Source of the DNA: a virus
IMG/VR virus record: IMGVR_UViG_3300031757_001001
Coordinates: 1 to 43,103 of that record
Reading direction: 5' to 3' (one strand)
DNA length: 43,103 bases
Part shown: one piece after another, positions 24,294 through 42,849 of the stretch
Layout of the letters: each line of letters begins with the position of its first letter
Position numbering within the stretch: the first letter of the stretch is position 1
The notes under the pieces: generated by a model
What the model saw: only the letters and a program-made list of their open reading frames with translations
What the model was told of the DNA's origin: nothing
Databases searched by the model: none
Translations under genes and position numbers: made by a program

Positions 24294-24911
24294 TTAAAAC
24301 TCCACGAATACGCCAGTGCCCGAATGTGGGTAGGTCATATTATAGCGGTAGTAGGTTATCTTAAAATTCTCACACTTGCGGCTAAGGTTACTATATATCT
24401 GATACCATTCTCGCGTGCTTCCATTCCACGTTTCTTCTGTGATGGTTCCTACGGACTTTCCGTTGTCCTCGATAACCCAAGTGATTGGAAGGTCATGGTT
24501 CATGGAATATCTTATTGATTCGCTAGCGATTCCGGTTAGAAAGCTCATATCTCCAATGAAGCAATACACTCTAGCGTCAGACTTAGATGCTTTAAGCTGC
24601 CACGCTGTCCCAACAGCTATTGGACAGATCCCCCCAACTATAGCGGAGCTAAAGAAATTATGTTCTGGGAAGTGTAGCGTTATTGACTTTCCGTCTAGGA
24701 TTTTCTGCTTGACTTGTTCGGCAGGAACTCCTTTCAATAGGGCATGAGAATGACTCGCCCAAGTTGAAAATACGTAGTCTTCTTTTTTAACTTTGTGATT
24801 TTTAAATAGGGAACAAAGGTCTGCTTCATTGTTATTACGCAAATGAACTGGAGCCTTGATCTTTCCAGACTCATATATCTTTTCAATTTCTTCTTCAAAT
24901 TCTTTAAGCAT
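24294..24911 (-). CDS. Thiamine-diphosphate enzyme, PP-domain subunit (E1-alpha-like)
   Basis: 205 residues. The TPP/Mg motif is IGDMSFLTGIASESIRYSMN ending VIEDNG, with the spacing of a canonical GDG..NN motif but Met for the third Gly. SNNFFSSAIVGGICPIAVGTA is the start of the domain. It is about half the size of E1-alpha (no tail). It holds the diphosphate of TPP, with the PYR subunit gene downstream. Likely chemistry is carbon-carbon bond cleavage or formation on a keto substrate. The substrate is not evident. Confidence 0.8.
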   Translation of the reverse strand: MLKEFEEEIEKIYESGKIKAPVHLRNNNEADLCSLFKNHKVKKEDYVFSTWASHSHALLKGVPAEQVKQKILDGKSITLHFPEHNFFSSAIVGGICPIAVGTAWQLKASKSDARVYCFIGDMSFLTGIASESIRYSMNHDLPITWVIEDNGKSVGTITEETWNGSTREWYQIYSNLSRKCENFKITYYRYNMTYPHSGTGVFVEF

Positions 24912-24922
24912 TTTTTATTATC

Positions 24923-26155: not shown

Positions 26156-26631
26156 AATATTTTCATCAAATCCTCTAATGAGGAAGCCTCTTTATCTCTT
26201 GCAGATAGAATAGGGTTGTCTGTAAACCAAGAAGAGTTTATTTGTTTGTCTTTATAGCTAACCGCCCATTGGTTTTCTGGGCCAGAATAATTCTCGCTCC
26301 ACTTATAATAAAGAATGCACTCATCGCTTAGGCATTCGTGGGCATTTAGGAAGTAGGGAGGTACTAAAATCTGTTTTTTGTTCTCGTCAGTTAATATGAA
26401 CTCCTGTCTATGTTCGGAATTGATGTCCCATAAGACCAATCTTAAGGAGCCATATATGCAGGTGCAGAGCTTCCAAGTCGTTGAGTCTCCATGAAACCCC
26501 CTGATAACTCCCCTTTTAGACCTAGAAAATCTGTCTTCCACAAACTCTAGGTCGTGATCTCTTGCTCTCCAGCAAGGATACAGTTCGCCCCTGTCGTCCT
26601 TGTAGCTAATAAGTGATTTTGCAGTTATCAT
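26152..26631 (-). CDS. RmlC-like dTDP-4-dehydrorhamnose 3,5-epimerase family protein
   Basis: 159 residues of the RmlC cupin. SKRGVIRGFHG is the block with the catalytic base His (usually RGLH). VPPYFLNAHECLSDECILYY is the second barrel block, and YSGPENQWAV the closing part. These enzymes epimerise C3/C5 of dTDP-4-keto-6-deoxysugars; variants act on other nucleotides. An RmlB homologue is 6 kb away in the same block, so substrate supply is plausible. RmlD is not identified. The ATG is just after an SDR stop. Confidence 0.83.
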   Translation of the reverse strand: MITAKSLISYKDDRGELYPCWRARDHDLEFVEDRFSRSKRGVIRGFHGDSTTWKLCTCIYGSLRLVLWDINSEHRQEFILTDENKKQILVPPYFLNAHECLSDECILYYKWSENYSGPENQWAVSYKDKQINSSWFTDNPILSARDKEASSLEDLMKIL

Positions 26632-27600
26632 TTAGTTTGCTTCGGCTAGATAATTTGTTTTATACCAGTCGCAGGTTTTTTCAAGACCCTCTCTCAGTGA
26701 GACTGCAGGGCTCCATCCAAGTTTTAGCTCTGCCTTTTGGCAGTCTAGGATTACGGTTGTCGGAATGTCAGGTTTTGTTGTATCGAATTTTATATCAAGA
26801 CTTTTGTCCTGAACTTCCATTATGGTAGACGCCAGCTCCAGTATAGAAAAGGCTTCTCCTGCCCCGCAGTTGAATAGCTCGTATTTAGAATCTTGTCTCT
26901 CGATACAACTGTTGATAAAACGAATTAGATCATCTATATAGACTACATCTCTAGAGGCTTTGCCGGTTCCCCAGATTTCAAACTCGCTCTCCGCACCTGT
27001 AACCTTATTAATAAAGGCTGGCACTACATGGCATTTGTCTAAGTCAAACTTATCGTATGGGCCGTAAACATTTGAATGCCTAAAGGCCGTAAACTTGGTT
27101 TCCCCTATTCTAGAATAGAAGTCACACATTTTTTCACTGAAGACCTTCATATTGCCAACACCGAAGTAGTTGTGGTATATCTCATCGTCTGCGTTCCAGT
27201 CATCTTCCGACTGGGGAACATCTTTTGGCTGATACATGACGGTGCAACTTGGAAATAGAAGATGCCCCACTTTGTTTAAGGTTGCTTCTCTAAATATCCA
27301 AGAGTTCATAACAGCATTATCTGTTACGTGAAGATACGGCCTTTCCACAACATCTTTAGAGCCGGTGGTTGTTGCTGCAGCTTGAAGTACTATATCGTAG
27401 CGTTGCTCCTCAAAAATACTCTTTACCTCTTCTTCTAATCGCAGGTCTGCTTGGATGTATCTAACACCCTCTAGCCTACCGTAGTCCGGATCGTCAGAGT
27501 TAAACAGAACCGCCGTTATATCATACGAGTCTCTAAAATATTCTAGCGCGTTTCTTCCTATGAAGCCATTAGCTCCACAAACCAACATACTCTTTTTCAT
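26632..27600 (-). CDS. SDR, GDP-fucose synthase-like (catalytic Tyr not evident)
   Basis: 322 residues. GANGFIGRNALEYF binds NADP; FRHSNVYGPYDKFDLDKCHV is close to the GDP-fucose synthase block N-x-Y-G-P-x-D-x-F...VIPA. The usual catalytic YxxxK aligns with FGVGNMKVF, which has a Lys but Val where Tyr should be. It is a paralogue of the SDR at 28294. Function would be epimerase/reductase on a 4-keto-6-deoxy sugar, but the missing Tyr makes the activity uncertain. Confidence 0.78.
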   Translation of the reverse strand: MKKSMLVCGANGFIGRNALEYFRDSYDITAVLFNSDDPDYGRLEGVRYIQADLRLEEEVKSIFEEQRYDIVLQAAATTTGSKDVVERPYLHVTDNAVMNSWIFREATLNKVGHLLFPSCTVMYQPKDVPQSEDDWNADDEIYHNYFGVGNMKVFSEKMCDFYSRIGETKFTAFRHSNVYGPYDKFDLDKCHVVPAFINKVTGAESEFEIWGTGKASRDVVYIDDLIRFINSCIERQDSKYELFNCGAGEAFSILELASTIMEVQDKSLDIKFDTTKPDIPTTVILDCQKAELKLGWSPAVSLREGLEKTCDWYKTNYLAEAN

Positions 27601-27602
27601 TT

Positions 27603-28292
27603 TTAAACCTTTACAAAATAAGCTATACCAACTTCGTTTGAATGTGAAATTTTTTCCCAGTTGTGGCTTGATTCTCTAACTACGCGAGGTGTTCCGTATC
27701 TGTCTCCTTCGAAATTTGCATCGTGAAGGGCGATTATACCACCTGTTCTTACTAGAGGCGCGTAGTTTTCCAGATCAAGCTTTACGTATTCGTATGAATG
27801 ATTCCCATCTATGAAAACGCAATCAAAAGGGCCGAGCTCTTGTGCTTGCTTTATTACGCCTTCCGAGGCCGAATCCCCGCATAATATAGTTTCCTTTTTG
27901 TGGTTTATCTCATCAGAATATCTCTGTACGTGTAGGTCGTCGTATTCTATAGTGCAGATAGAATCCATCAATAGGCTTAACACAAAGTGCGTTGAGGCAA
28001 AATGGCCCAGCCCTATCTGGAGAATGTTTCTAACATTGTTTTTAGACAACAAGCATAGAAAGTCATAGATTTCCTCCTCAACCTGTTGTATCACTTGTGG
28101 GTTGCTATTAATGATGTCCACTTTTGGATCTATATAAAGATCACTATAACCTTCTACTCTATCTAATATGTAGGAAGCCCTAGATTCCATAAGCATCATA
28201 GCAAGATCTACTTTGCTATCAGAGGTGACGGCTATTCCGGACTTACACAGACGATCAAAAAAATTGTTTATATATTCTTTTTCTACCTTCAT
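27603..28292 (-). CDS. Class I SAM-dependent methyltransferase
   Basis: 229 residues from ATG 28292 (GAGG just upstream; the longer TTG start is less likely). ILQIGLGHFASTHFVLSLL is the SAM-binding motif I (E/D-x-G-x-G type, here GLGHFAS), FDCVFIDGNHSYEYVKLDLE is motif IV, and GGIIALHDANFEGDRYG resembles the Methyltransf_24 class, whose D-x-D-N metal site fits O-methyltransferases acting on sugars. Lying among sugar genes, it probably methylates a glycan hydroxyl or carboxyl. Confidence 0.83.
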   Translation of the reverse strand: MKVEKEYINNFFDRLCKSGIAVTSDSKVDLAMMLMESRASYILDRVEGYSDLYIDPKVDIINSNPQVIQQVEEEIYDFLCLLSKNNVRNILQIGLGHFASTHFVLSLLMDSICTIEYDDLHVQRYSDEINHKKETILCGDSASEGVIKQAQELGPFDCVFIDGNHSYEYVKLDLENYAPLVRTGGIIALHDANFEGDRYGTPRVVRESSHNWEKISHSNEVGIAYFVKV

Positions 28293-28293
28293 T

Positions 28294-29292
28294 TTATACC
28301 TCAATCATGTTCGTATAATCGGCCTCAAGGAAAGGATCGTGCCGTCCTTCGTATGGATTGTTAGCTATAAACCAATCGAATGTTTCTTTTAGACCCTCTT
28401 CAAGCGATACGGTTGACTCAAAGCCGTATCCTCTTAATCGTGAGACGTCTGCAATTCTAAAAGAGTCTCCTTTTGGCTTGGTCATATCGTGCGTTATTTC
28501 TAAGTCTTTTCCAGAAACTCTGACTAAGGTTTCAATCAGTTCCTTTACTGTTATGCACCTACCATTGCCGATATTTACAGGTTCGGTAATTTTGTTTTCG
28601 ACTAAGAACATGGCTCCTCTTGCAATATCTCTAGCGTGAATGATGTCTCGTCCAGCAGAACCATCCCCCCATATTTCAACACTGTCCGTTGCTTCGACCA
28701 CTTTTCGGACTAGGGAAGGTACTAAGGTTGATGTCGCTAGATCGAAGTTATCGTACTTACCATATATATTCACCGGCTTCATTATTGAAATGTTCTGTTC
28801 CCCGTACTGCTGCTGGTATGCGTCTATCTGGACTTCTCCCATTCTTTTTGCCCATCCTGCAAACCAATCATTTGGAGAAGGGTTCTTGTCCCATAGCTCA
28901 CTTTCCCTAAATACTTCTGATTGACCATAAGTACCGACAGTACTTGTATAGATGCCGCCTCCCATGTCGGAGGTGTACATGGCTGCGATCATGCTGGTGT
29001 TGAGTTGTAAGATGCTGGTAAAAAAGGTATACTGCTTTGTTTTGGTAACAACGGGAGATCCTTTTATTCCTGCTATATGAAAGACAAAATCTTTTCCTTC
29101 GCAAGCACTCGTACAATTCTTCAGAACTCTTAGGTCAGCATTGATATACTCAACGCCCCAATCTTCGTCGAAGTTATTGTTGTCTAGGGAAGCAGACGTT
29201 ACGTTTGCTCCTTCTTTTACCAAAAGTTCAACGAGCTCTCGACCCACCAAGCCTGTGCCACCAGTTACTAGTATGTTTTTACCGCTATACAT
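28294..29292 (-). CDS. SDR nucleotide-sugar epimerase/reductase
   Basis: 332 residues. GGTGLVGRELVELL binds NAD(P); VNIYGKYDNFDLATSTLVPSL and GDGSAGRDIIHARDIARGAM match the paralogue at 26632. The YxxxK position reads WFAGWAKRMGEVQ, with Lys but Ala at the expected Tyr. This DWFAGWAKRMGE pattern recurs, in my recollection, in phage and marine-bacterial SDRs. The missing Tyr hints at altered catalysis. It overlaps the CgeB-like gene by 8 bases. Confidence 0.82.
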   Translation of the reverse strand: MYSGKNILVTGGTGLVGRELVELLVKEGANVTSASLDNNNFDEDWGVEYINADLRVLKNCTSACEGKDFVFHIAGIKGSPVVTKTKQYTFFTSILQLNTSMIAAMYTSDMGGGIYTSTVGTYGQSEVFRESELWDKNPSPNDWFAGWAKRMGEVQIDAYQQQYGEQNISIMKPVNIYGKYDNFDLATSTLVPSLVRKVVEATDSVEIWGDGSAGRDIIHARDIARGAMFLVENKITEPVNIGNGRCITVKELIETLVRVSGKDLEITHDMTKPKGDSFRIADVSRLRGYGFESTVSLEEGLKETFDWFIANNPYEGRHDPFLEADYTNMIEV

Positions 29293-30244
29293 TATTGTTT
29301 CTCCAAGTTATGAGAGAGTCATCTTTGCTTTCTATGTAATCAAATATCTTCTCTACCGTGTAGTTTTGGCTTTTATTGTAAGCTCTTTCTATTATGTCTC
29401 TGTACTCATCAAAATTATTCCTTACCCTCTCTATTATACCCTCCAATTCCTGAAAGGAGTCAAAGTATATAAACTCCTTTTCGGGAGTGTAAAAGTCTTC
29501 AATTAAATTCCAAGGATCTCTTTTAACCAGCATTAAAGATTTTGAGGAAGCGATCTCATGCGTCCTAACTTTAAATTGAGGCATGACACCTTTATCAAAG
29601 TGGTCAAAAACATCAAAATTATCTCCATTGTCAAGGGAAGAAGGGCTCATGTATATCATATTGAAACTTAATGACGAACGACATTTACTTAACTCAACAA
29701 GCTTTTCTTCTGAAGGAAGATTTACATGGGTGCATTTGTTGAACTCATAGGGGTGTCTCATCCACGTATTTAGTTGTGATGTTAGAAATTTATAGTCGAA
29801 CTTAGATATTGTTTCTATTGCAGATATATGGTCTTGACCGTGAATAGATCCCATCCAAGAGCAATCTGCATCGTAGTTGCCAAACTCTTTCACTGAATAG
29901 TTTGTAAACGGGTAGGGAATATATTTAAACTTTTCATATCCAAAGTGCTCATTCATAAACCTACAGGTAAATGGACACACACAATAAACCTCTGTAAAGA
30001 AATCGTAATGATCGAAGTGGAAATAATCCTTTTGTGCCGTGAATTCGCATGGGCTCCAGAGAGCCAGCAAGCACTTTCTTTCATAGCTCTGGTAGGGAAC
30101 CTTTATATTATGGTCATAAATCCAATGGGCCCCGTTCATAAGAACAGAGCTTAAGGAGTCGTCTCCAAGCGGCTCTAGGCTCTTGTGCATATAGGTAACA
30201 ACTCCCCACAAAGCATCTCCATCAAAGTTAGCGACAACCCTCAT
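29285..30244 (-). CDS. Glycosyltransferase, CgeB-like (GT-B)
   Basis: 319 residues. KVRTHEIASSKSLMLVKRDP and EKEFIYFDSFQELEGII form the CgeB/spore-maturation type C-terminal donor domain (R-x-x-E...G-x-x-L-L and YF.s..EL). CSWMGSIHGQDHISAIETIS is the start of that domain. It would transfer a sugar to an unknown acceptor. Overlaps both neighbours (4 and 8 bases), so it is part of one operon. CgeB-like transferases are widespread in bacteria and phage sugar clusters. Confidence 0.8.
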   Translation of the reverse strand: MRVVANFDGDALWGVVTYMHKSLEPLGDDSLSSVLMNGAHWIYDHNIKVPYQSYERKCLLALWSPCEFTAQKDYFHFDHYDFFTEVYCVCPFTCRFMNEHFGYEKFKYIPYPFTNYSVKEFGNYDADCSWMGSIHGQDHISAIETISKFDYKFLTSQLNTWMRHPYEFNKCTHVNLPSEEKLVELSKCRSSLSFNMIYMSPSSLDNGDNFDVFDHFDKGVMPQFKVRTHEIASSKSLMLVKRDPWNLIEDFYTPEKEFIYFDSFQELEGIIERVRNNFDEYRDIIERAYNKSQNYTVEKIFDYIESKDDSLITWRNNNV

Positions 30245-30990
30245 GCGTTTGTTCCCCGCGAGCTCATGTCAATGCTGTACTCGTCAAAGACATCCATTAA
30301 TTCTAAGAAATACTCTTTAATGTTCCATTTTCCTTTAACTACGGCGGTAGCAATGTGTGGGAAGACACTAGAGTCATAATGAAACAACCCTCTCTTTTTT
30401 TCACAGTCGTGATATTGTAATCCTTTTGTCATGCCTATGCTTCTGCAAACATCAGAACCTCCCGGCTCTTGCTGCATCCTTCCATTGCTTTCTGGAGACG
30501 CCCTAAACATCCTTTCAAAGTCCCTTGTCCTCCAGACGCTAGCTTGTTGGGCAAAAAAATTGCTACCGTTCGGGTCTATTACAAAAAGTTTTTCATAGCC
30601 CTTATGGGGAGAAACCTCTTCGGGCCCTTTAGTTAGCTTAACAAAACTGTAGTCGGAGTTGGATAAGGCCTCTAATATGTAGGATATCTTTTCTTGATTA
30701 ACCAAATCAAAAAGAATATAATCTTCGCTTGTGTATAATATAAACTCTTCTTCTATTTGTTCCAAACATCCTAAGAATTGGTTTCTATAGGTTTCATTGT
30801 CGTCATAAAGGAGTTTAACAAAATCTTCTGGTACCGTGTTGACCGTATGGGGTTTCTCCTCAAACCCTTTGTCTACACAGACATACTTCTTAAGGCCCTT
30901 TGGAAAGAACTTTTCTAATCTTCCGAAACAAGGAGACCAGACATCAGAATATCTTGAGTTGGTATCTATAACTAATGCGAGTGAATTCAT
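30241..30990 (-). CDS. Glycosyltransferase-like protein, possible GT-A fold
   Basis: 249 residues. FILYTSEDYILFDLVNQEKI suggests a DxD-like ED.I metal site at the edge of a Rossmann sheet; FAQQASVWRTRDFERMF is a second block seen in small GT-A enzymes acting on bacterial surface glycans. RDFERMFRASPE and SRYSDVWSPCFGR are further landmarks. The C-terminal half ends with a Trp/Lys segment. It has an A-run (10 A) between the upstream stop and its ATG. Assignment is from pattern and context. Confidence 0.6.
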   Translation of the reverse strand: MNSLALVIDTNSRYSDVWSPCFGRLEKFFPKGLKKYVCVDKGFEEKPHTVNTVPEDFVKLLYDDNETYRNQFLGCLEQIEEEFILYTSEDYILFDLVNQEKISYILEALSNSDYSFVKLTKGPEEVSPHKGYEKLFVIDPNGSNFFAQQASVWRTRDFERMFRASPESNGRMQQEPGGSDVCRSIGMTKGLQYHDCEKKRGLFHYDSSVFPHIATAVVKGKWNIKEYFLELMDVFDEYSIDMSSRGTNA

Positions 30991-31024
30991 AAATTTTTTT
31001 TTTGAAATGGGCTTTATAAAGTGG

Positions 31025-31630
31025 TCATTTGAATAAACTAAATTCAGTTAGGTCTCTGTAAGGAGGATTTTCAATTTGATCCTCTGCATGTTCTGGATAG
31101 TTACTCAGTAATATTAGGCCTCTTGCTGCCTGTTCGGGAGTCATATACATGTTCCATCCTCCTTCTACTATGTCATCCTGATGATAAGGGACGCCTTCTC
31201 CTCGCCCCTCATATCTCATTCTTTTAATCGACTCAACAGCTTCCTCGCTATCTGTCAAAATCATTCCACCCTTACCAATCTTGAGAGGTTTTTTAAAATG
31301 GAAGGATAGACACATTAAACTTCCGGGAATATACATATTAGAAGTAAGCCGTTTCGCTGAATCATAAATAGGAAATGGCTTAAGCTGATACAGTCCCTTC
31401 CAGTCAACCTCCGCGAACTCTAACTTGCCTCCTGCTTGTAAAATGGACTGAGGAACCGACAGATAAGTTCGCTTAGGGATAGTTACAGATTTCCCCTCTA
31501 CATTTAGGTACTTGCAGGCAAGGAAGAGGGAGTTTGTACAGCTGTTTGTTGCTATAGCATACTTAGCTCCTGTGTAGTGAGCTATTTCTTCTTCGAACCA
31601 CTTTACTATTTCAAATGGATTTCTAAGCAT
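31025..31630 (-). CDS. Compact DegT/DnrJ/EryC1-type aminotransferase-like protein
   Basis: Only 201 residues against about 370 for the family. It keeps ATNSCTNSLFLACKYL (PLP phosphate), FPIYDSAKRL, and LSFHFKKPLKIGKGGMIL, with a candidate PLP lysine in HFKKPL and GKGG after it. The C-terminal substrate domain is almost absent. It may be a minimal active enzyme, a domain-shuffled partner, or a decayed gene; reading frame and start are clean and it overlaps no stop. Next to a GNAT gene, a natural pair (amination, then N-acetylation of a sugar). Confidence 0.72.
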   Translation of the reverse strand: MLRNPFEIVKWFEEEIAHYTGAKYAIATNSCTNSLFLACKYLNVEGKSVTIPKRTYLSVPQSILQAGGKLEFAEVDWKGLYQLKPFPIYDSAKRLTSNMYIPGSLMCLSFHFKKPLKIGKGGMILTDSEEAVESIKRMRYEGRGEGVPYHQDDIVEGGWNMYMTPEQAARGLILLSNYPEHAEDQIENPPYRDLTEFSLFK

Positions 31631-31633
31631 TCT

Positions 31634-32014
31634 CTATCTCTCTAGTAAATAATACTTCTTCTTAAATCCACAGGACTCGAAAAGTCTTACGCTAGCCTCG
31701 TTATCTAATTTTACCTTCGCAAATGCGTCTGGGTGAAGTTTCATTAGCTCATTTATCATAAATTTAGCAATGCCCTTCTTTTGGTGGGCTGCGTGAGTGG
31801 CTACCCTTATGTCTCTATTGATTTCTCCAACCCAACCAACAGGATGTCCATCCTCCAAAGCTATGTAATAGTCTTTGCAATGAGTTTGCATATATTTATA
31901 ATGACTTTTTGTAGTTATTATTTTTTGCTCTATAAAACCCTCTCTTAAAGAGTTTCTAAGTTCAAGAACAAAGTTCCAATACTTTCTTTCACATCTTATT
32001 AGTTCTAGTCCCAT
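31634..32014 (-). CDS. GNAT-family N-acetyltransferase
   Basis: 126 residues. VATHAAHQKKGIAKFMINEL is the pyrophosphate-binding loop (R/Q-x-x-G-x-G/A, here QKKGIAK); the preceding VGWVGEINRDIR is beta strand 4 and EASVRLFESCGFKK is the last family block. It probably acetylates an amino sugar made by the adjacent DegT-type enzyme. Acceptor is inferred from position. Confidence 0.85.
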   Translation of the reverse strand: MGLELIRCERKYWNFVLELRNSLREGFIEQKIITTKSHYKYMQTHCKDYYIALEDGHPVGWVGEINRDIRVATHAAHQKKGIAKFMINELMKLHPDAFAKVKLDNEASVRLFESCGFKKKYYLLER

Positions 32015-32814
32015 GAGTCCTCCTGATTTATAATAGAATTTTGTTCACCCTCCCAGTGACATCGCAGATAAACTCGCGTGCCTCGCCATCCTTGCAAACC
32101 GAGAAGGGGTGATAGTGAAGATCCAATATCTATATATTGATTTTGATCAAAGTCTTTATAAAGTTCATATATTAAGAAATTACTGAGCGTTGCAGCAGAA
32201 AAAAGAAAGATATGATCTTTAATGTTATTGTCTGAAATGTACCGCTTCATCTCCTCTATTAGATGATAATCATTTACCATACAATTAGAGCCTATCCTGA
32301 AATCTTTTTTAACTTTAAAGGGAAGGCTGTCAAACGTGGCGTTTTTATTACATACTAATATTACATCTCTGTTCTTAAACTCAGGGATCATCATGCTTAC
32401 GAATAGACTATAGTTGCCATTTATCATAGCATTTGAAAAGCTTAAATGTTCGTGGTCTTCGTTCCCATAAAGACCTAAACAAAAATCAAACGCTTCTCTG
32501 CCCCATTCGTTAGTTCCGGGAATCCCCTTAAAATAGTTTTTCTTTTTAAATTGAAAAGCCTCTACTAATTTTTTGTGATAAAAGGAATGTTCCTCTGGGT
32601 TAAATTCTTTTCTCTCCTCTTCCATGTAGGGAATAGGGGCCTTAACGGGATTCTCCCCATAAACATCCTCTTGGATAAAATAATCTTCAGCTAACACTAG
32701 GTGTTTGTTTTTTAAAACTGAGACTTCCCCATCTGAGAACCTAGCAAAGGCAAATGGCTCTTTAGATTGCGTAAGCATCAGTATCTTAAAAAATTCTTCT
32801 TTAAAGTTCTTCAT
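32005..32814 (-). CDS. GT-D-type glycosyltransferase (DUF1792-like)
   Basis: 269 residues. KEPFAFARFSDGEVSVL carries the GT-D hallmark (R-F-x-D-G-E, residues near 25-30). YIDIGSSLSPLLGLQGWRG is a second conserved piece (D-x-G plus G-x-x-R). This fold, first named for streptococcal DUF1792 proteins, is a metal-independent GT with UDP-sugar binding. It lies between RmlB and the GNAT gene. I am fairly sure of the family, not of the sugar. Confidence 0.75.
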   Translation of the reverse strand: MKNFKEEFFKILMLTQSKEPFAFARFSDGEVSVLKNKHLVLAEDYFIQEDVYGENPVKAPIPYMEEERKEFNPEEHSFYHKKLVEAFQFKKKNYFKGIPGTNEWGREAFDFCLGLYGNEDHEHLSFSNAMINGNYSLFVSMMIPEFKNRDVILVCNKNATFDSLPFKVKKDFRIGSNCMVNDYHLIEEMKRYISDNNIKDHIFLFSAATLSNFLIYELYKDFDQNQYIDIGSSLSPLLGLQGWRGTRVYLRCHWEGEQNSIINQEDSWD

Positions 32815-33742
32815 TATGGCTGCCTCCTAAAAAGGAGGAAAAGGGATCTGTTGAAAACCATTTATACAGTCCTTCAGGGTGCTGGGGGCTCCATCCTAGG
32901 GATCTTAACTTGGATGCATCAACAGCATATCTTACATCCTGACCCCATCTATTCGGAACAAACTGGATCGAGCTTTCATCTTTTCCCATCCAAGATATGA
33001 TTGTTTTCACAACGTCTAAATTTACCATATAGTTCTCTGATGCTATATTGAAGGTCTCATTTTTTATACCACTGTCTAGTATTGCAAAGATACCGCTAAC
33101 ATTATCCTTTACGTAAGTCCAGTCTCTTATATATGAACCGTCGCCATGCACGGGTATCTGTTTATTGTTTTGTAGTGAAGATATACACTTAGGAATAAGC
33201 TTTTCTTCGTACTGTCTTTCTCCGTAGTTATTACTACTGCGGGTTATGATGTAGTCGATGTCATAAGTTCGGGAATATGCTTTGACGAGCATTTCAGCCC
33301 CCGCTTTGGTTGCAGAATATGGATTGCTTGGAGATAGAGCATCATCTTCTTTGAAAACGCCATCTTGCCTGTCTCCATAAACCTCGTCGGTGCTGATATG
33401 AAAAAAAAGTGGGCGACCATACTCGGGCTTTCCCCTAATAAGCTCAAGAAGGTTCCATACGCCGATCAAGCTACTATCAACAAAGGGTTTAGAATCCCGA
33501 ATAGAATTGTCAACATGACTTTCAGCGGCAAAATTTACAAGGATATCACATGTTGGAATGTGGATCAATGTACTTATGTCGGCTATCTGCAGTTTGTAGT
33601 TTGGATTAGAGTCCCAAGGAAGTTTTTCGTGAGATGCATATCCCATCTTGTCGATATCATATACGGTATGGCCTAACTCTAGTGCCTCTTCTACAAAATG
33701 GCTCCCTATAAAGCCTCTACCTCCCGTTACCACCAATCTCAT
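32801..33742 (-). CDS. rmlB: dTDP-glucose 4,6-dehydratase-like SDR (RmlB)
   Basis: 313 residues. GGRGFIGSHFVEEAL binds NAD; ISTDEVYGDRQDGVFKEDDA contains the dehydratase Thr-Asp-Glu triad (TDE); the catalytic YxxxK is PYSATKAGAE. These are the marks of RmlB, which makes dTDP-4-keto-6-deoxy-glucose, the entry point for rhamnose and many deoxysugars. Slightly shorter than E. coli RmlB (361). RmlA is not in the window, so the donor may come from the host. Overlaps the wecB-like gene by 26 bases. Confidence 0.9.
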   Translation of the reverse strand: MRLVVTGGRGFIGSHFVEEALELGHTVYDIDKMGYASHEKLPWDSNPNYKLQIADISTLIHIPTCDILVNFAAESHVDNSIRDSKPFVDSSLIGVWNLLELIRGKPEYGRPLFFHISTDEVYGDRQDGVFKEDDALSPSNPYSATKAGAEMLVKAYSRTYDIDYIITRSSNNYGERQYEEKLIPKCISSLQNNKQIPVHGDGSYIRDWTYVKDNVSGIFAILDSGIKNETFNIASENYMVNLDVVKTIISWMGKDESSIQFVPNRWGQDVRYAVDASKLRSLGWSPQHPEGLYKWFSTDPFSSFLGGSHNEEL

Positions 33743-34742
33743 CTTTTAGTACCTCCAATATCTTCTTTGAAGAGGTGCCATCTCCGTAGGGGCAGTCTTC
33801 ATCAACTATAAATTCTCCACTGTCAATTATACCGTCAAAAATGGACTTTAGTCCGTTTGGATTTTTACACATAAAAGCAAAAGACCCGATTCCCTCTGCT
33901 CTTTCGGTCACTTTCCTACAAACAATACATTTTTTCTTCAGAAAGGAGGCCTCTTCCTGAATTCCTCCGCTGTCAGTTATGATAGCTTTACATGTTCTAA
34001 TAAACTCGATACACTCATCGTAGGAAAACGGGTCTGAAACAGTTACATCTGTGAGTATGTGTTGATGCTTGGAAACTCTTGGGTTTGGGTGTAGAGGAAG
34101 AACAAAGTCTAGGGCTGGATTTTCTTTAGCTAACTTATTAATTTCTTCAAACCATTCGTCCATGTTGTGGTGGTTTTCTCTTCTATGCATTGTGACAAGA
34201 ACTTTATCCTCAAGAGAAGGGACAAGCCCAACAAGGTTGTCTAAAACTGTATTGCCTGTCAGATATGCTCTTGTGTCGTGGGCGAGCTTGCCAGTAATAT
34301 TGCAAATATTTTCTAAGGATGTTTGCGTTGGGCAAAAATGTATAGACGCTAACGCAGAGAGGGCTGTTCTATTAAACTCTTCTGGATAGGGATTATCTAT
34401 GTCAAAAGTTCTTAAGCCCGCCTCTAGGTGGATAACGGGAATATTTCTATGAAAAGCTGCGAGACCAACAGCAAAAGCAGAGGTGGTATCTCCATGTACA
34501 AGTACGTGCGACACCCCTTCAAAAAGCCCATCCTTGTTTAGCAAGGAACAAACTATTGAATCGAGCCTGTTGTCTCCACCCTCTATTTCATTGACAATAA
34601 AAGTATCATCAAGATATTCTGCGACTAGCGAGGTATGCTGTCCAGTAAACAGTATTTTAAATGGAATCTTGTCTTGAATAGCATCAACAACGGGCTTTAT
34701 TTTTATCCACTCTGGTCTAGTTCCAAAAGAAATGAGTAGCAT
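33717..34742 (-). CDS. wecB: UDP-N-acetylglucosamine 2-epimerase (non-hydrolysing, WecB-like)
   Basis: 341 residues. FGTRPEWIKIKPVV starts the first Rossmann domain; HGDTTSAFAVGLAAFHR and HLEAGLRTFDIDNPYPEEFNR give the catalytic Asp/Glu/His positions; AIITDSGGIQEEASFLKKKC is the second nucleotide site. Together they fit a full-length enzyme. It turns UDP-GlcNAc to UDP-ManNAc, a precursor of surface polysaccharides. It is a core enzyme of the sugar block. Confidence 0.94.
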   Translation of the reverse strand: MLLISFGTRPEWIKIKPVVDAIQDKIPFKILFTGQHTSLVAEYLDDTFIVNEIEGGDNRLDSIVCSLLNKDGLFEGVSHVLVHGDTTSAFAVGLAAFHRNIPVIHLEAGLRTFDIDNPYPEEFNRTALSALASIHFCPTQTSLENICNITGKLAHDTRAYLTGNTVLDNLVGLVPSLEDKVLVTMHRRENHHNMDEWFEEINKLAKENPALDFVLPLHPNPRVSKHQHILTDVTVSDPFSYDECIEFIRTCKAIITDSGGIQEEASFLKKKCIVCRKVTERAEGIGSFAFMCKNPNGLKSIFDGIIDSGEFIVDEDCPYGDGTSSKKILEVLKDEIGGNGR

Positions 34743-34744
34743 GC

Positions 34745-35611
34745 TTAAGGCTCCTTTGAGTATCCTAGTTTTTTTAAAAGTTTTTTATCTAAGTTGTTGT
34801 ATATAGAAATTATATCCTCATCTCTCATTGAATCAAGATATCTTTTTGATAAAAAATAATCTTTTCTATCAAATTTTCCCGCCAACACTGTAGGTCTGTT
34901 TGCGTAATTATTTACATAGCTTTTTATCTTATAATTAATATTGGTGTGCCTCACCCCTAAGAAATTAGAGACTCTTTCTATTTCTTTTTCTTCATCTTTT
35001 AGAACATCTTCGTATCTAAGTATTAAAACTTTGTGTTCGGCATTAATCCAGCTATTATAAAAGTTATTCCATAATGCTATGCAGTCTTGTGAATTACCAT
35101 ACTCTCTTGCATTTTCAACAGGTCTTCCTGTGTGTCCAAAGTCCCTAAAACTTAACCACCAAGAGTATGGGTTCTTTACACATAAAACAATTGGATTGTC
35201 AACATCTGAATCATAATATTTATGTTTTTTTTCCTGTTCTACTTCTATTGATAAAAGATTTTTTTCTAAGAGCTCAAATATAAAACCAGTTCCAGATCTT
35301 TCTAGTCCTTTTATTGATACTTCTTTATTCTCTATTGGATCTTTAAGAAAGAACCTAGATCTTAAAAAATCAAACAAACCGCTACAAAGATGTATGGCGG
35401 CGACAGAGGAGGAATTATTGCTTAGATTAACCCTACTAGCCTCTTTTATCCTTTCTTTTTTTAAATTGATTCTGTCCAGAGACAACTTATAGAAAGCCTC
35501 TCTATAGTCTTCTCTTTCTTCGCATAGGCCCTGTTCTATATCCGTTACTTCTTTCAGGTAACGGTCACAGAATCCAGACCCATAACATTGGCAAGGTTCT
35601 TTGGGGTTCAT
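34745..35611 (-). CDS. Sulfotransferase-like protein with Cys-rich N-terminus
   Basis: 288 residues. The PAPS-binding loop is KGLERSGTGFIFELL (R-S-G-T, residues about 93-107); LCVKNPYSWWLSFRDFG is the 3'-phosphate strand; VLILRYEDVLKDEEKEI closes the domain. An N-terminal segment, CQCYGSGFCDRY and LCEE, contains four cysteines and could bind zinc or an Fe-S cluster; it is not part of the standard fold. It would sulfate a glycan hydroxyl, with PAPS from the host. Unusual in a phage setting. Confidence 0.82.
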   Translation of the reverse strand: MNPKEPCQCYGSGFCDRYLKEVTDIEQGLCEEREDYREAFYKLSLDRINLKKERIKEASRVNLSNNSSSVAAIHLCSGLFDFLRSRFFLKDPIENKEVSIKGLERSGTGFIFELLEKNLLSIEVEQEKKHKYYDSDVDNPIVLCVKNPYSWWLSFRDFGHTGRPVENAREYGNSQDCIALWNNFYNSWINAEHKVLILRYEDVLKDEEKEIERVSNFLGVRHTNINYKIKSYVNNYANRPTVLAGKFDRKDYFLSKRYLDSMRDEDIISIYNNLDKKLLKKLGYSKEP

Positions 35612-36336
35612 TAGCTTTCTCTTACTAGGCTCCAGCCCTTTTTAACATAATGCTGGATGCACTTATCTCTTAGGGAGAAAAACTCTTGCTGTTTCGTAAC
35701 AGACTCTGTTTTATCGTCAACTCCCAGCTCATAACCGTACAAGGAACTTGACAGCTCTCTTTCTAGTGGAGGATGGGGAGGAACATATGTTGGTATCCCT
35801 CCATGAATTTTGGCCATCGCTGACAGGTGAATGTCTTCTCCTGTTTCCCAAGTGTGTGGCTCTTCTTCCCAGACGTATTTAAGGTGAGCCTTGTTTATAA
35901 ACCAAGCGTGTCCAACTAAATCTACCTCTATCTTTTCCTCGTTATGAGAAGGCCATCCAAATCTCTCGTGATCCATGTAGAATTCTTTACTATTGAGTTG
36001 TAGCCCAACTCCTCCTAGTATCGCCGGTTCCTCTTCGTATGTTTCCATGCAGTTTTCTAGCCACTGATTGCCGGGAACTGTATCGTCATCGAACAAGGCA
36101 ACAAATTCTGTCTGAGCAAGCATGGCGAGAGAGAATCTTCCAAAATATTTCCAGTTATGGTCACAAATAACTTTTCTATCCACATCATAATCAACAGACT
36201 CTGTATAAAAATCCTCATGGTGATTTACCCATAGCCAAATTTGATCAGGAGTGACCGTTTGGTTTCTAATAGCTTGGATCTGTAGAGGTAGGTTCTTCGG
36301 TCTCCTGTATCCATTTAATATTACCGTTACAGACAT
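35611..36336 (-). CDS. Glycosyltransferase, GT2-type (GT-A)
   Basis: 241 residues. SVTVILNGYRRPKNLPLQIQ is the start of a GT2 domain and FVALFDDDTVPGNQWLENCM gives the DDD metal/nucleotide site. GGVGLQLN and the later WETGEDIHLSAMAKIHGGI carry an ED motif typical of the acceptor side. It transfers a sugar from UDP or GDP donors. It overlaps the next glycosyltransferase by 10 bases, and its stop overlaps the ATG of the sulfotransferase gene. Confidence 0.85.
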   Translation of the reverse strand: MSVTVILNGYRRPKNLPLQIQAIRNQTVTPDQIWLWVNHHEDFYTESVDYDVDRKVICDHNWKYFGRFSLAMLAQTEFVALFDDDTVPGNQWLENCMETYEEEPAILGGVGLQLNSKEFYMDHERFGWPSHNEEKIEVDLVGHAWFINKAHLKYVWEEEPHTWETGEDIHLSAMAKIHGGIPTYVPPHPPLERELSSSLYGYELGVDDKTESVTKQQEFFSLRDKCIQHYVKKGWSLVRES

Positions 36337-37169
36337 TCAACACTTTCCCAAAATAACTCGTGTGCCCTAGAACATTGCGAAACCATTTCTTCCTTTCCAA
36401 CGTCTTCCATGTGATGCAAACATCCTATCAGGTCGTTGCCGATTATCTCCATGCCACAAAAAATAGCCTCAGCCACAGAACGACAGTATGGTTCATAAAA
36501 TGCTGGAGTGTAGAAAAGTCTTTTGTACTTGTTATATAGATTGGGCATCTCTCCAAACTGCACATTTCCTATAAAGTCTACATTAGGTAGAGTATGGCAT
36601 GTTTGTATGAAGTATGGATCATTAGACCATCCTGCAACTACAAACTTTTCCTCTGGATTTTCTATAGCATAAGAAAAAAGAGAATTTGTGCCTTTTAGTT
36701 GGTGCATATACCCAACATAGAGAATCTTATCTTCTCTTTCTAGGTCTTGATTGCTAAAGAAAACAGGGTCTATTGGGTCGGGAATTATTTCTGCGTTTGT
36801 GAAATAGTCTCCGTAACTATTAATAAACTGTTCAAGATGAAACTTAGATAAGAAGAAGGCCTTTTTACAGCTAGTGAATAGATTTTTTCTATCTTCTTGA
36901 GAAAGATATCTATTAGCGTCATGTTCAAGCCTAACATGATTCGGGAATGTTGTTATCCATTCTACCATACGTGGCTTCTGATATAAGGCCTCTAGGTTTG
37001 AAGAAACCAGAAGGTCATATTCGGGATGTAATATCCTGTCGTCACTACTAACATTAAACTCTACTATAGAATGTCCCCTGCGAATACCCTCATCTATTAT
37101 GAGAGCATTACTCCTTTGGGCTCCTCCTTGGCGTTCCTTTCCATAGTCCGAAATCCATAGTACCTTCAT
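36327..37169 (-). CDS. Glycosyltransferase, GT-B fold
   Basis: 280 residues. KVLWISDYGKERQGGAQRSN gives the GG(A)xR-type N-terminal start of GT4 enzymes; LYVGYMHQLKGTNSLFSYAI and FYTPAFYEPYCRSVAEAIFC are the donor domain motifs (E...E pattern: EP..RSVAEA). The C-terminal end is short compared with GT4 averages (350-400). Acceptor unknown. It is second in transcription order after the cupin. Confidence 0.84.
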   Translation of the reverse strand: MKVLWISDYGKERQGGAQRSNALIIDEGIRRGHSIVEFNVSSDDRILHPEYDLLVSSNLEALYQKPRMVEWITTFPNHVRLEHDANRYLSQEDRKNLFTSCKKAFFLSKFHLEQFINSYGDYFTNAEIIPDPIDPVFFSNQDLEREDKILYVGYMHQLKGTNSLFSYAIENPEEKFVVAGWSNDPYFIQTCHTLPNVDFIGNVQFGEMPNLYNKYKRLFYTPAFYEPYCRSVAEAIFCGMEIIGNDLIGCLHHMEDVGKEEMVSQCSRAHELFWESVECL

Positions 37170-37531
37170 TAATCACCCTTCATAATCCTAATTGAATCCT
37201 CATCAAAATGTTGAGTAGAAAACTCAAACATCACAACATCTGTTAGCCCTAGCATCTGATGCCTCATTCCTACCGGAACATGGAAGCTGTCCCCTTCGGT
37301 TAATAGGGTCTTTTCCACAAAAGTATCCGTCTTGCGATCATTCCAACCGTAGGTAACTTCTAGTGTTCCTGATTGTATATAGAACGTCTCGTCCTTGAGT
37401 TTGTGATAGTGCCAGCTACATTTTTTTCCTTTTTTAAAGAAAAGTAATTTGCCACAATACTCTTTTTTATTTACAACCCAATCCTCGTAACCCCATCCTT
37501 TTGAGACGAAGACTCTATCTTTTTTTTCCAT
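37169..37531 (-). CDS. Cupin-domain protein, mannose-6-phosphate isomerase-like
   Basis: 120 residues from ATG 37531, which overlaps the upstream stop (TAATG). CSWHYHKLKDETFYIQSGTL is cupin motif 1 (two His and a Glu for metal), and GDSFHVPVGMRHQMLGLTDV is motif 2 (third His). GWGYEDWVVNKKEYCGKLLF is the strand before. Such cupins are common with GDP-mannose and WecB-type genes. It is the first gene of the sugar block in transcription order. Enzyme versus binding role is not settled. Confidence 0.84.
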   Translation of the reverse strand: MEKKDRVFVSKGWGYEDWVVNKKEYCGKLLFFKKGKKCSWHYHKLKDETFYIQSGTLEVTYGWNDRKTDTFVEKTLLTEGDSFHVPVGMRHQMLGLTDVVMFEFSTQHFDEDSIRIMKGD

Positions 37532-38157
37532 TACCACCAGCCCTTTTTCTTTTTCTCAGCCTTTGTCTGCTCTTCAGCTACTACTTTTGGAGCTGGAGTC
37601 GATGGCTTTCGTACCTCTGGGGGGAGAACCCGTTCTTGCTTTTTTTTTGAAGGTTTTGGCGGCGGGTTCTTATACTTAAACATTCCAGAAAAGTCATAGT
37701 TGTTTATTATATGAGAAAACACATCCAAGGAATTTTTTCTATATAAATTCATATAGCTTTCTGAGAAGTGCCAATGAATATCAAGCGAGTCGCCACCCCA
37801 AGGTTGCACTAAGCAAACATTATGATTAAGACCTGCTGAAAATGAGACAGTAGGCTTATTAAAGAATAGCTCTGCTAAATTACTGATACAAAGAACTTCA
37901 TCTGTAACTACGATTGCTTCTCCGTTAAAACCGATTAAAAGAGGAATTGCAGCAATGCCCTTCGTCCCTTGTAGACCATAGGGCTCACGAACGACCATTA
38001 CATTAAAGTCCTTTTCGTACTTTTTGATACTGTTTACTGTATCTTGTGCCTTTTTGCCATCTTCATCTGTCTGAAGGACAAATACCTTGTAAGAGTTGTT
38101 TATTTTCTTTACTGCTTTTTTGATTGGTTTCTCTCTCATGTTAATTTTATCTTCCAT
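37531..38157 (-). CDS. Hypothetical protein with a Lys/Pro-rich tail
   Basis: 208 residues. The first 150 form a Rossmann-like alpha/beta domain (YKVFVLQTDEDGKKAQDTVN; EPYGLQGTKGIAAIPLLIGF; EAIVVTDEVLCISNLAELFF). VSFSAGLNHNVCLVQPWGG adds a possible ligand loop. The last 50 residues are disordered and Lys/Pro-rich (PPPKPSKKKQERVLPPEVRK), ending KKKGWW. I recognise no family; a GT-A relative is possible. GGAGGT precedes the ATG. It lies between the cupin and a structural-type protein. Confidence 0.6.
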   Translation of the reverse strand: MEDKINMREKPIKKAVKKINNSYKVFVLQTDEDGKKAQDTVNSIKKYEKDFNVMVVREPYGLQGTKGIAAIPLLIGFNGEAIVVTDEVLCISNLAELFFNKPTVSFSAGLNHNVCLVQPWGGDSLDIHWHFSESYMNLYRKNSLDVFSHIINNYDFSGMFKYKNPPPKPSKKKQERVLPPEVRKPSTPAPKVVAEEQTKAEKKKKGWW

Positions 38158-39827: not shown

Positions 39828-40222
39828 CACTCCCGTGCCCTATCCTTTTGCGGAACCGAAGAGTTAATGTAGTCTAAATCTTCTTCAGAAAGTTCTCCAT
39901 CTAAGTAAGCCTGAGCGTCTATCCCGTTTTCTATTAAAAACTTTCTTATTAATTCATGGTCGTATCTTTCCAAAAGCATATTTTTGAAGCATAAAGGACA
40001 CATTCCGACAGTCTCCTCTTCATCATGTCCCTCTGCGTAATGAAGTATTCTTACTTGAAGACCCATGATTGCACGCTGATTAGATGCTCTCTGTGAATTG
40101 AGGAGGAACAGTTCTTCTTGAGCATGTCTGGTATCAATGTGGGTTTCTCTTATTTCATATACTAGAAAGGACATAGGGACTAGTAAAAGAAAGAAGAAAA
40201 CATTTTTGTAGTTTAGTTTCAT
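39827..40222 (-). CDS. Membrane-anchored protein with a CPLC motif
   Basis: 131 residues from ATG 40222, which overlaps the dipeptidase stop (ATGA). An N-terminal membrane segment (NVFFFLLLVPMSFLVYEI) is followed by a helical linker, IMGLQVRILHYAEGHDEE and GMCPLCFKNMLLER. The later half has acidic helices. It matches the 95-residue protein at 1032 in order of parts (membrane anchor, IM..QV helix, acidic stretch, CPxC), suggesting common descent. The role of the CPxC is unknown (redox, metal or zinc). Confidence 0.7.
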   Translation of the reverse strand: MKLNYKNVFFFLLLVPMSFLVYEIRETHIDTRHAQEELFLLNSQRASNQRAIMGLQVRILHYAEGHDEEETVGMCPLCFKNMLLERYDHELIRKFLIENGIDAQAYLDGELSEEDLDYINSSVPQKDRARE

Positions 40223-41445
40223 TTTTTCCAACCTTCTAAGATAAATCTTAAAGAATTTCTACCCAATATGTCTTTTATGACATCTGGGCTATACTTATCT
40301 GTATGAATACCACTTTTGAGACAGGATAAATATCTAGTAAGTCTGGGAAGTTCTGATATGTCTGTAATCTCGTCAGGAGGATCGGTAAACCCATCAAAGT
40401 CTGTCCCTATAGCAATTATCTCATGACCTGCTATGTTTGTGATATGTTCTATAGTTTGATCTATATATTTTAAACCTAGACCGGTATCAATAGGACTAAG
40501 CCAGTAGTTCATGAAAATTATACCCATTAAACAGTTGTGGTCTGCAAGCCATTTCATTTCCCAGTCCTCTAGGTTAAGCGGGTCTGGATTGACTCCAAAG
40601 ACACCTGTATGGCTGGCAATCACCCTTGATAGATCGTCGCCCACTATTTTGTATACTTCCTGTCTTGCCTTAGGAGTACAATGAGTGACATCTATTATCA
40701 TGCCCATCTCTTTCATCGCTCCAACAACGTTGCGACCTATGGAGGTTAGTCCCTTATTCATATCCCAAGAGGACATTAGGCTCTTCCAGTTGCCTTTTTT
40801 AATCCCATATTCAGGATAGGGAAAAACAGGAGCCGCAACATGATTTTGATAGAAATGAGTTAGTGTCATGTAGGCAGCACCCCTATCGTAGAAATGCTCA
40901 AGGTTATTTAATAGTTCTTTTTCTATTTCTTTTGGCGTAGCGGTGGCATCTTCCACCCTTTTCTTTGCCAATTCCCCATTAAGGCTGTGGCATCCTTCTA
41001 TAGAATGTATCATAGCTATGTCATTATTAGATATAGCTTGCTCTAACTCACTTCTACTGAAAACAAACTTAAACCTACCATCAAATTTTTTTATCTCTAC
41101 CTCTATCGAGTCCATTTGAGCATTAATAGCATCAAAGTAAGTAGGATCAAAGACCCTTTTGCGTACCCTAGGATATACCCACTTGAGGAATTTAATTAGC
41201 TTCTGGTCGTCAACCCACTCTATTTCGGGGACGAAGGAGGTTGAGAGAACTACATCTAATCCACCCTCATCCATCTTAGGGAGGGTATTTCTTTCACTCA
41301 GAGGCCAGAATGATCGTTTAAAAAGGGTAGTTAGAAATCTAGAATTTTTACCATCGAGACTTCTTTCAAACAGGAAATTCTTAAGTGCCCCATGATTATG
41401 CCAATCGAAGATTAGGGATTCGTTGTGTAATTTTTCCCAGTCCAT
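40219..41445 (-). CDS. Membrane dipeptidase (peptidase family M19)
   Basis: 408 residues of the renal-dipeptidase family. DWHNHGALKNFLF replaces the usual H-x-D start of the zinc site with H-x-H; AMIHSIEGCHSLNGEL holds the bridging Glu; GMIIDVTHCTPKARQEV and RVIASHTGVFGVNPDP hold zinc-site His residues; IIAIGTDFDGFTDPP is the last family motif. It cleaves dipeptides. No signal peptide, unlike secreted eukaryotic forms. It is not a normal phage gene; it could act on host peptidoglycan-derived or nutritional dipeptides. Confidence 0.88.
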   Translation of the reverse strand: MDWEKLHNESLIFDWHNHGALKNFLFERSLDGKNSRFLTTLFKRSFWPLSERNTLPKMDEGGLDVVLSTSFVPEIEWVDDQKLIKFLKWVYPRVRKRVFDPTYFDAINAQMDSIEVEIKKFDGRFKFVFSRSELEQAISNNDIAMIHSIEGCHSLNGELAKKRVEDATATPKEIEKELLNNLEHFYDRGAAYMTLTHFYQNHVAAPVFPYPEYGIKKGNWKSLMSSWDMNKGLTSIGRNVVGAMKEMGMIIDVTHCTPKARQEVYKIVGDDLSRVIASHTGVFGVNPDPLNLEDWEMKWLADHNCLMGIIFMNYWLSPIDTGLGLKYIDQTIEHITNIAGHEIIAIGTDFDGFTDPPDEITDISELPRLTRYLSCLKSGIHTDKYSPDVIKDILGRNSLRFILEGWKK

Positions 41446-41478: not shown

Positions 41479-42402
41479 TTATAGACCTTTAATTAACACC
41501 CTGCCTTTCGGTGTTCTATTTACATAACCCTGTTGCATTAGATAGGGTTCTATTTTCTGCTCGATGGTCTGCCGGTCTAAACTTAACGCGCTACATAAAG
41601 TATTTACACCGATATGAGTGCCCTTAGGCAAGTTTATTAAAACCTCTAGGTATTTCCTGTCTATTGGATTTAAACCATTCTCATCAATGCCCTGCATTTT
41701 AATAGCTTGCGTAACCTGCTCAGGACTCAAACCCTGCAAATTATTTGCTACGCCGTAGTCTCTAATCCATTCTAAGAAGTTATTGGCTAGACGAGGCACT
41801 CCTCGACTAATTTTAGAAATTATTTTTACGCTTGGTTCTGAAATGTCCACTTTTATCTTTTTGGCGTTAATAGAAATCAACTCAGACAGTTCCTCTATGC
41901 TGTAAGGACGGATAAAGTGCTTTAATTTAAACCTGTCTAAGAATGGCTGAACTAAATCACCCATATCAGTAGTCGCCCCTACAAAACAGAACTTAGGTAT
42001 GTCTATATTGATTGTTTCGCCCTGACTATTTTTACTAGCAGGGATAACTATATCTAAACGAAAGTCCTCTATCACAGTAAGTAAATATTCTTGTACCTTT
42101 TTGCTTACTCTGTGAATCTCATCAATAAAGAAGATGGAACCTCTTTCCATTTTCATCAGATAGGGAAGCACGTCCTTGTTTGTTGATAGACTGGCTCCAT
42201 TGGCAATTTGAATAGGAACATTGAGTTCATTAGCTAACGCTCTTGCCAGCGTGGTCTTGCCTAGACCTGCTCCTCCGTAGAACAGACAATGAGAGAGAGT
42301 GTCTCCCCTTACCATAGCCGACTTTACTGAGATTTTTAAATTCTGGATTATTTCATCTTGACCAATAAGATCATCAAATTGTTGTGGTCGTAGATTGCTC
42401 AT
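41479..42402 (-). CDS. ruvB: Holliday-junction ATPase RuvB
   Basis: 307 residues (E. coli RuvB 336). RPQQFDDLIGQDEIIQNLKI starts the family; Walker A is GGAGLGKT (43-50), Walker B is FFIDEIHR, sensor 1 is FVGATTDMG, and the C-terminal winged helix begins GLNPIDRKYLEVLINLPKG. Sensor 2 is GVPRLANNFLEWIRDYG. It is an AAA+ motor that drives branch migration with RuvA. No RuvA is seen, but the gene upstream (overlap 29 bases) carries a RuvA domain III-like end. Confidence 0.96.
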   Translation of the reverse strand: MSNLRPQQFDDLIGQDEIIQNLKISVKSAMVRGDTLSHCLFYGGAGLGKTTLARALANELNVPIQIANGASLSTNKDVLPYLMKMERGSIFFIDEIHRVSKKVQEYLLTVIEDFRLDIVIPASKNSQGETINIDIPKFCFVGATTDMGDLVQPFLDRFKLKHFIRPYSIEELSELISINAKKIKVDISEPSVKIISKISRGVPRLANNFLEWIRDYGVANNLQGLSPEQVTQAIKMQGIDENGLNPIDRKYLEVLINLPKGTHIGVNTLCSALSLDRQTIEQKIEPYLMQQGYVNRTPKGRVLIKGL

Positions 42403-42724
42403 CTTTTATTGCTTCCTTAATTAATTCCACGACTGTAATATTCTGTCTATCGTATTTGTGAACGAGTCGTGTGGCTTCTAGTAAAGTGTAACCCTGAGAG
42501 TGAAGTGCCTGTATAGCTAACTTTGTTGTTTTGTTCTCAAGTTGTTTATTTTTATTATTACTTTTATTGTAAGCTGGTATTGTCACAGAATCCCAACACT
42601 CAGGACAGGTCATCACAATATCCGACTCTTGAGGTATGTCTTGGTTGCTTAATCTAAAATGTAAATAACAATTAGGACATTTGTAGTCAATGTCTAGTTG
42701 GGTTCTTGATATTGTTGCTTTCAT
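42374..42724 (-). CDS. Zinc ribbon fused to a RuvA domain III-like RuvB-binding segment
   Basis: 116 residues from ATG 42724 (a TTG at 42748 is an alternative). The N-terminal half is a zinc ribbon: CPNC (16-19) and CPEC (40-43). A basic Asn/Lys linker follows. Residues 68-107 (KLAIQALHSQGYTLLEATRL then VHKYDRQNITVVELIKEAIK) match the pattern of RuvA domain III, the part that contacts RuvB (A..AL..LGY...EA.R.V.K....LI.EA). The OB/HhH DNA-binding parts of RuvA are absent. Directly upstream of ruvB with 29 bases overlap, so it is probably RuvB's loader. Confidence 0.8.
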   Translation of the reverse strand: MKATISRTQLDIDYKCPNCYLHFRLSNQDIPQESDIVMTCPECWDSVTIPAYNKSNNKNKQLENKTTKLAIQALHSQGYTLLEATRLVHKYDRQNITVVELIKEAIKDEQSTTTTI

Positions 42725-42777
42725 GTTCTGTGTTGTCTCTGAAATCAAAGAGGATAGGTTGAGTAAGACATTTTTAG

Positions 42778-42849
42778 TAGCCCGACGAGGAATCGAACCT
42801 CGAACTACGGCTTAGAAGGCCGCTGTTATATCCGTTTAACTATCGAGCC
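42778..42849 (-). tRNA. tRNA-Arg (anticodon UCU)
   Basis: A 72-nt tRNA. Acceptor GGCTCGA / TCGGGCT (two G-U pairs), D-arm GTTA-AACGGATA-TAAC, anticodon stem GCGGC / GCCGT with loop CTTCTAA (anticodon TCT), T-arm CGAGG-TTCGATT-CCTCG, discriminator A. CCA is not encoded. It reads AGA/AGG, codons used heavily in these AT-rich genes, so it likely supplements the host. Confidence 0.97.

Follow-up and report, generated by a model that had tools for sequence, protein, structure and literature searches.

The viral record IMGVR_UViG_3300031757_001001 was analyzed over its whole length of 43,103 nucleotides (nt), referred to here as the window, which is probably a fragment. It carries, on the minus strand, a small gene that overlaps ruvB and encodes a 116-amino acid (aa) protein with an N-terminal zinc ribbon and a C-terminal domain resembling domain III of RuvA. 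We use Zn-DIII as a working name for this small protein. The features of the locus are as follows:

42374-42724, minus strand: Zn-DIII small gene, 116 aa, ATG start, zinc ribbon and RuvA-domain-III-like C-terminus
42578-42685, minus strand: zinc ribbon, residues 14-49, with ligands C16, C19, C40, and C43
42395-42532, minus strand: three-helix RuvA-domain-III-like domain, residues 65-110, from profile and fold matches
42374-42402, minus strand: overlap of the two genes, in which the last 29 nt of the small gene are shared with ruvB
41479-42402, minus strand: ruvB, 307 aa, Holliday-junction branch-migration ATPase (TIGR00635, NF000868, PDB RuvB 1in4)
41998-42057, minus strand: segment within ruvB, placed by alignments to 1in4 and among the phage RuvBs; the site is defined in PMC9477746 and PMC2628435

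The overlap, which a preliminary description of this DNA had already pointed out, is likely to couple the translation of the two genes. The ATG start of the small gene is credible because its homologues begin with the same MKA... N-terminus.

The 307-aa product is unambiguously a real RuvB and a member of the family. It scored 307.6 bits against TIGR00635 (cut-off 299.05) and 326.6 bits against NF000868 (cut-off 282), and solved RuvB structures matched it (1in4, E value 2e-64). Walker A/B, sensor 1, the arginine finger, and sensor 2 are all retained, and alignments to 1in4 and among the phage RuvBs demonstrated that the presensor-1 beta-hairpin is present between Walker B and sensor 1; in Escherichia coli RuvB, the hairpin stretch is L135-L152 (PMC2628435). 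The basic DNA-hairpin motif R/K-x-x-K/R-G-R, which reads RTPKGR in the window RuvB, was found in 63 of 68 phage RuvBs. The DNA-contact residues of the C-terminal hairpin of Pseudomonas aeruginosa RuvB are R314, R317, and R319 (PMC10071043).

The C-terminal domain of the small protein was compared with RuvA by profile searches. Residues 70-107 aligned to positions 6-44 of the Pfam RuvA_C model (length 47) with 16.9 bits (E value 0.009). The TIGR00084 RuvA model was matched with 17.4 bits (E value 0.0026) only over positions 150-202 of 202, in agreement with the earlier observation that the oligonucleotide-binding (OB) and helix-hairpin-helix (HhH) domains of RuvA are missing from this protein. 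When the window protein alone was searched against PDB, RuvA domain III chains ranked best at E values of 0.7-1, and the match from this one sequence is only suggestive. A four-row profile of close relatives, by comparison, placed nine RuvA chains in the top nine positions (best E value 0.0011), and the first match of a 45-row family profile was 1ixs_A, the RuvA domain III in the RuvA-RuvB crystal complex (E value 1.1e-5, whole domain covered). The homology to domain III is therefore secure, because both profiles of relatives put RuvA first in PDB. In addition, RuvA_C was matched by 12 of the 45 family members (best E value 9.7e-5), and two natural relatives exceeded the curated Pfam cut-off with 24.7 and 24.3 bits.

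Structure prediction led to the same assignment. An AlphaFold2 model built on the 45-row alignment, with a mean predicted local distance difference test (pLDDT) score of 78, contained helices at residues 65-76, 81-90, and 98-112; it superseded an earlier, weak model from six sequences (pLDDT 68). The best Foldseek matches of this model in PDB were RuvA domain III chains of RuvAB-junction structures, bound to RuvB, and the top match (7pbl_G) had a probability of 1.00, a target template modeling (TM) score of 0.89, and a root-mean-square deviation of 1.0 Å. The fold check proposed in the preliminary description thus came out in favor of RuvA. G78, corresponding to E. coli RuvA G171, is invariant in 45/45 relatives, and the position of L74 (E. 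coli RuvA L167) is occupied by L, M, V, or I in all 45. E. coli RuvA L167 and L170 are both required for RuvB activity (PMC2628435), and the position equivalent to L170 is hydrophobic or aromatic in 43 of the 45. These results confirmed that the C-terminus of the small protein is homologous to RuvA domain III, the RuvB-binding part of RuvA, as had been proposed. Single-sequence searches found no relative of the small protein in annotated phage records and returned only noise from PHROGs, and no predicted viral protein matched its structure over the full length.

A second carrier of this domain was observed in a related contig. A 157-aa protein (L112:1495-1965, minus strand; contig of L029; G009:C1:9581-9706) has a membrane segment in its sequence and a RuvA domain III at its end, which scored 29-31.5 bits, over the Pfam cut-off. 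In this contig, an acetyltransferase gene and not a zinc-ribbon gene lies upstream of ruvB. From this membrane-anchored protein, it seems that these phages use domain III as a portable dock for RuvB.

The N-terminal half is a zinc ribbon, as had been described. The window protein has the knuckles CPNC (C16, C19) and CPEC (C40, C43), the four cysteines are conserved without exception in all 45 relatives, and the AlphaFold2 model shows a four-strand ribbon with a mean pLDDT of about 88-92 across residues 11-50, joined to domain III by a flexible linker. The family comprises two subfamilies, the window type (CPNC...CPEC) and a larger one with the pattern QKPI...C-x(2-4)-C..HW...C-x(1-2)-C, which differ in the cysteine spacing and the surrounding sequence of the ribbon. 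No single Pfam zinc family exceeded its cut-off for the ribbon (PF13717 Zn_ribbon_4, 15.3 vs. 30.3 bits). Its Foldseek neighbors included the ZitP zinc finger 2nb9 (probability 0.98), AglX (7zok), and ribosomal zinc ribbons, and it also resembles MJ0042-type zinc fingers. The zinc finger of ZitP binds proteins. Across the family, the ribbon has a mean net charge of +4.6 and a maximum of +9. DNA binding by the ribbon is possible, but it is not indicated for the window member because of its own net charge of -3 and the ZitP-like fold neighbors.

To describe the pairing of the two genes, IMG/VR was scanned with each of them. With the phage RuvB alignment, relatives were detected in 347 contigs, and 82 loci were examined, namely, the best 80 and two contigs from a metagenome-assembled genome (MAG). 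A cysteine-rich small gene was located directly upstream of ruvB at 69 of these 82 loci (68 of the Zn-DIII family and one acetyltransferase). With the small protein of the larger subfamily, 162 contigs were detected, and pairing was counted in the best 80. The gene pair, for which a search of phage genomes had been suggested, was found widely: ruvB lies no more than 60 nt downstream of the small gene in 77/80 loci and overlaps it in 71 of those 77. Of the other three loci, two end at a contig edge, and one contains ruvB with a small gene that the search pattern had missed. At no checkable locus did the small gene occur without ruvB. The two MAG contigs (L110 and L111), binned as Lokiarchaeota, carry the same pair among phage-like neighbors; an archaeal origin was rejected since the neighboring genes match phage loci, and these contigs are likely viral or mis-binned. 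In the larger subfamily, two conserved genes without a Pfam match lie upstream of the pair (L094:2179-2601 and L094:1748-2170), and in loci that have lost the zinc-ribbon gene, the former lies immediately next to ruvB.

The related contigs were also searched for the classical partners of RuvB. The RuvA N-terminal domain (OB fold, PF01330) was found in 0/50 contigs, that is, neither in the window, as already stated in the preliminary description, nor in 49 related contigs, including those of 224, 171, 157, and 154 kb, and the same search was positive in 10 control bacteria. No match to full-length RuvA including HhH domain II (TIGR00084) reached the cut-off of 85 bits in the window protein or its relatives. 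A canonical RuvA elsewhere on the contigs was likewise searched for and not found. The small protein is not a RuvA, because searches for two of the three domains that define RuvA were negative; its action may nevertheless be similar to that of the part of RuvA that docks RuvB. RuvC was found in 0/30 contigs searched and was rejected as a partner. A RecA-family recombinase was present in 17/25 contigs and endonuclease VII in 6/25, the latter indicating that no single resolvase accompanies the pair. The T4 gp23 capsid protein, used as a group marker, had no match in the contigs, nor in the controls. Near a RecA-like gene, two contigs (L130:2767-3213 and L131:2851-3264) encode a small nuclease-looking protein (DFYINTLKLAVEVHGQQHY) without a Pfam match, possibly a junction or VSR-type nuclease.

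The presence of the small gene changed at least eight times on the RuvB tree, with three of these changes forced by well-supported branches. In RuvBs without the small gene, the greatest loss of hydropathy was located at hairpin-strand positions 123 and 121 (ranks 1 and 2 among 295 columns), and the six most divergent six-column stretches were all inside positions 118-128. Fisher p values for these two columns, which ignore relatedness, were 0.0006 and 0.0075. This change supports, without proving, a predicted docking of domain III on the hairpin.

Overall, the computed homology and fold of the C-terminus, the pairing with ruvB, the intact RuvB motifs, the absence of the RuvA N-terminal domain from the contigs searched, and the hairpin change point to the small gene as a dedicated partner or adaptor of the phage's own RuvB that replaces the motor-docking role of RuvA, a reading to which we assign a probability of about 0.75. 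Domain III would dock on the phage RuvB and recruit or activate it, while the zinc ribbon on its flexible linker would take the place of the tetrameric, junction-holding body of RuvA and tether RuvB to another target, either branched DNA or a phage recombination or replication protein. In the RuvAB motor, domain III of RuvA acts as an ATPase-activating and nucleotide-exchange element (PMC9477746); therefore, the minimal adaptor may act in the same manner without a tetramer. We infer that the protein binds RuvB physically, stimulates it, and contributes to the recombination-dependent DNA metabolism of the phage. The replacement of RuvA envisaged in the preliminary description is partly supported by these results, and neither of the two outcomes named there as contradicting it was encountered.

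Several points weigh against this interpretation. The window protein by itself scores under the curated cut-offs (24 bits for RuvA_C and 85 bits for TIGR00084), has Q77 at the position of E. coli RuvA L170, and carries the negatively charged ribbon, which disfavors plain DNA binding. In eleven related contigs, of which two are longer than 150 kb and some are short, ruvB is present but no small gene is detectable by the family profile, and the next upstream gene abuts ruvB in contigs of this kind. The small gene is therefore dispensable in some lineages and not strictly required, since related phages keep ruvB without it. The hairpin correlation was spotted before it was tested, with p values uncorrected for relatedness; a tree-based independent-pairs test had only two well-supported pairs and low power, and the hydrophobic hairpin is kept in three of nine lineages without the small gene. 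None of the contigs is known to be complete, and all may be fragments; the RuvA of the host could also serve the phage RuvB. Finally, the RuvB binding and RuvB activity of the small protein are predictions.

How the ribbon would act can be explained in more than one way. It may bind a phage protein, such as a recombinase, a single-stranded DNA-binding protein, the replisome, or a sigma/clamp complex, and couple RuvB to it, with DNA specificity residing in that partner or in RuvB. This is a serious possibility, though short of an even chance: the negative ribbon of the window protein, its likeness to MJ0042/ZitP and AglX zinc fingers, and the membrane-anchored protein with its seemingly portable dock agree with it, and subfamily ribbons that differ in cysteine spacing and sequence are expected for different clients, but the client itself is putative and deduced indirectly. 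Tentatively, the ribbon could instead bind branched or forked DNA directly, which would make the protein a pared-down but functional RuvA able to load RuvB onto Holliday junctions or reversed forks. The RuvA-like layout (DNA part, flexible linker, and domain III), the positive ribbon charge of the family, and the RecA-like recombinase in most contigs are in line with such a loader; however, the charge of the window's own ribbon, the lack of a known tetramerizing or junction-shaping element, and protein-binding fingers beside ribosomal zinc ribbons among the fold neighbors argue against it. It is unlikely that the small protein serves solely as a soluble activator of the RuvB ATPase or as its nucleotide-exchange factor, with a ribbon that merely stabilizes or dimerizes it. 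The functions of domain III in the RuvAB motor would suit this role, but the ribbon cysteines are conserved as strongly as the core of domain III, which suggests more than a stabilizer. Bacterial RuvA and RuvB are compatible across species in hetero-complementation (PMC9477746), so domain III might act as a competitor of host RuvA at the RuvB of the host, blocking host branch migration or fork reversal. However, the small gene is strictly paired with the ruvB of the phage itself, and the hairpin of phage RuvBs is altered where that gene is missing; both observations point to the phage RuvB as the partner and make this very improbable. A generic ubiquitin-associated (UBA)-like helical domain unrelated to RuvA can be practically dismissed: RuvA domain III is itself UBA-like and 1/45 members weakly matches UBA_9 (E value 0.0048), but UBA families were not preferred over RuvA_C, RuvA came first in the PDB profile and fold searches, and ruvB adjoins the gene.

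Compared with known systems, the small protein resembles bacterial RuvA (TIGR00084; domains I OB, II HhH, and III RuvA_C) in carrying domain III at its end after a flexible linker and in adjoining ruvB. Unlike RuvA, it lacks domains I and II and has a zinc ribbon instead, is 116 aa long rather than about 200, and has no known tetramer. The phage RuvB is a full RuvB like those of bacteria (TIGR00635), with all AAA+ motifs, the presensor-1 hairpin, and the basic DNA hairpin motif, whereas hairpin length varies among the phage RuvBs, which are at most about 40% identical to RuvBs in annotated phage records. The ribbon shares a similar four-strand fold with ZitP/MJ0042-type ribbons (PF13717) but scores under the Pfam cut-off and stands in a different context. 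Jumbo phages surveyed previously also possess their own RecA-like recombinase, as well as Holliday-junction resolvases (Iyer et al., 2021, PMC7824862). That survey described phage RuvC without a coupled RuvB (PMC7824862), whereas the large phages studied here have RuvB together with an adaptor, and searches of 30 contigs turned up no RuvC. Literature searches, with subscription papers and preprints outside their scope, found no description of the gene pair.

Other features of the window were also recorded. A tRNA-Arg (TCT) gene (42777-42849) lies directly upstream of the zinc-ribbon gene, and a peptidase M19 membrane dipeptidase gene (40219-41445; E value 1.5e-50) lies directly downstream of ruvB, an order kept in the closest related contigs. 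The window also contains a transfer-messenger RNA (tmRNA) gene (19346-19689; tag AEHSFAIVA; Rfam tmRNA 86 bits). Three DUF1501-like genes are located at 1953-3167, 3186-4490, and 6840-8147, as likewise in a related contig (L112); the last matched Pfam DUF1501 (E value 6e-68), and the first two were judged by likeness. A long block of nucleotide-sugar, aminotransferase, and glycosyltransferase-like genes, assigned by reading alone, spans 20341-37537.

In the textbook RuvAB machine, the tetramer of RuvA grips the junction and also serves as the docking site of the motor. A natural system in which the motor is retained with just the docking domain separates these two roles of RuvA and offers a small, testable minimal partner. 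The chances are evenly balanced that the pair forms a RuvA-free branch-migration or fork-remodeling motor, in which domain III has a new use as a portable connector, attached to a zinc ribbon in most of the phages and to a membrane-anchored protein in one or more of them, and directs RuvB to some target different from the RuvA-clamped Holliday junction. The pair would reveal by what means phages that encode a recombinase of their own perform branch migration, and it suggests a stripped-down, RuvA-free loading or control of the branch-migration motor in large environmental phages that belong to a little-known group.
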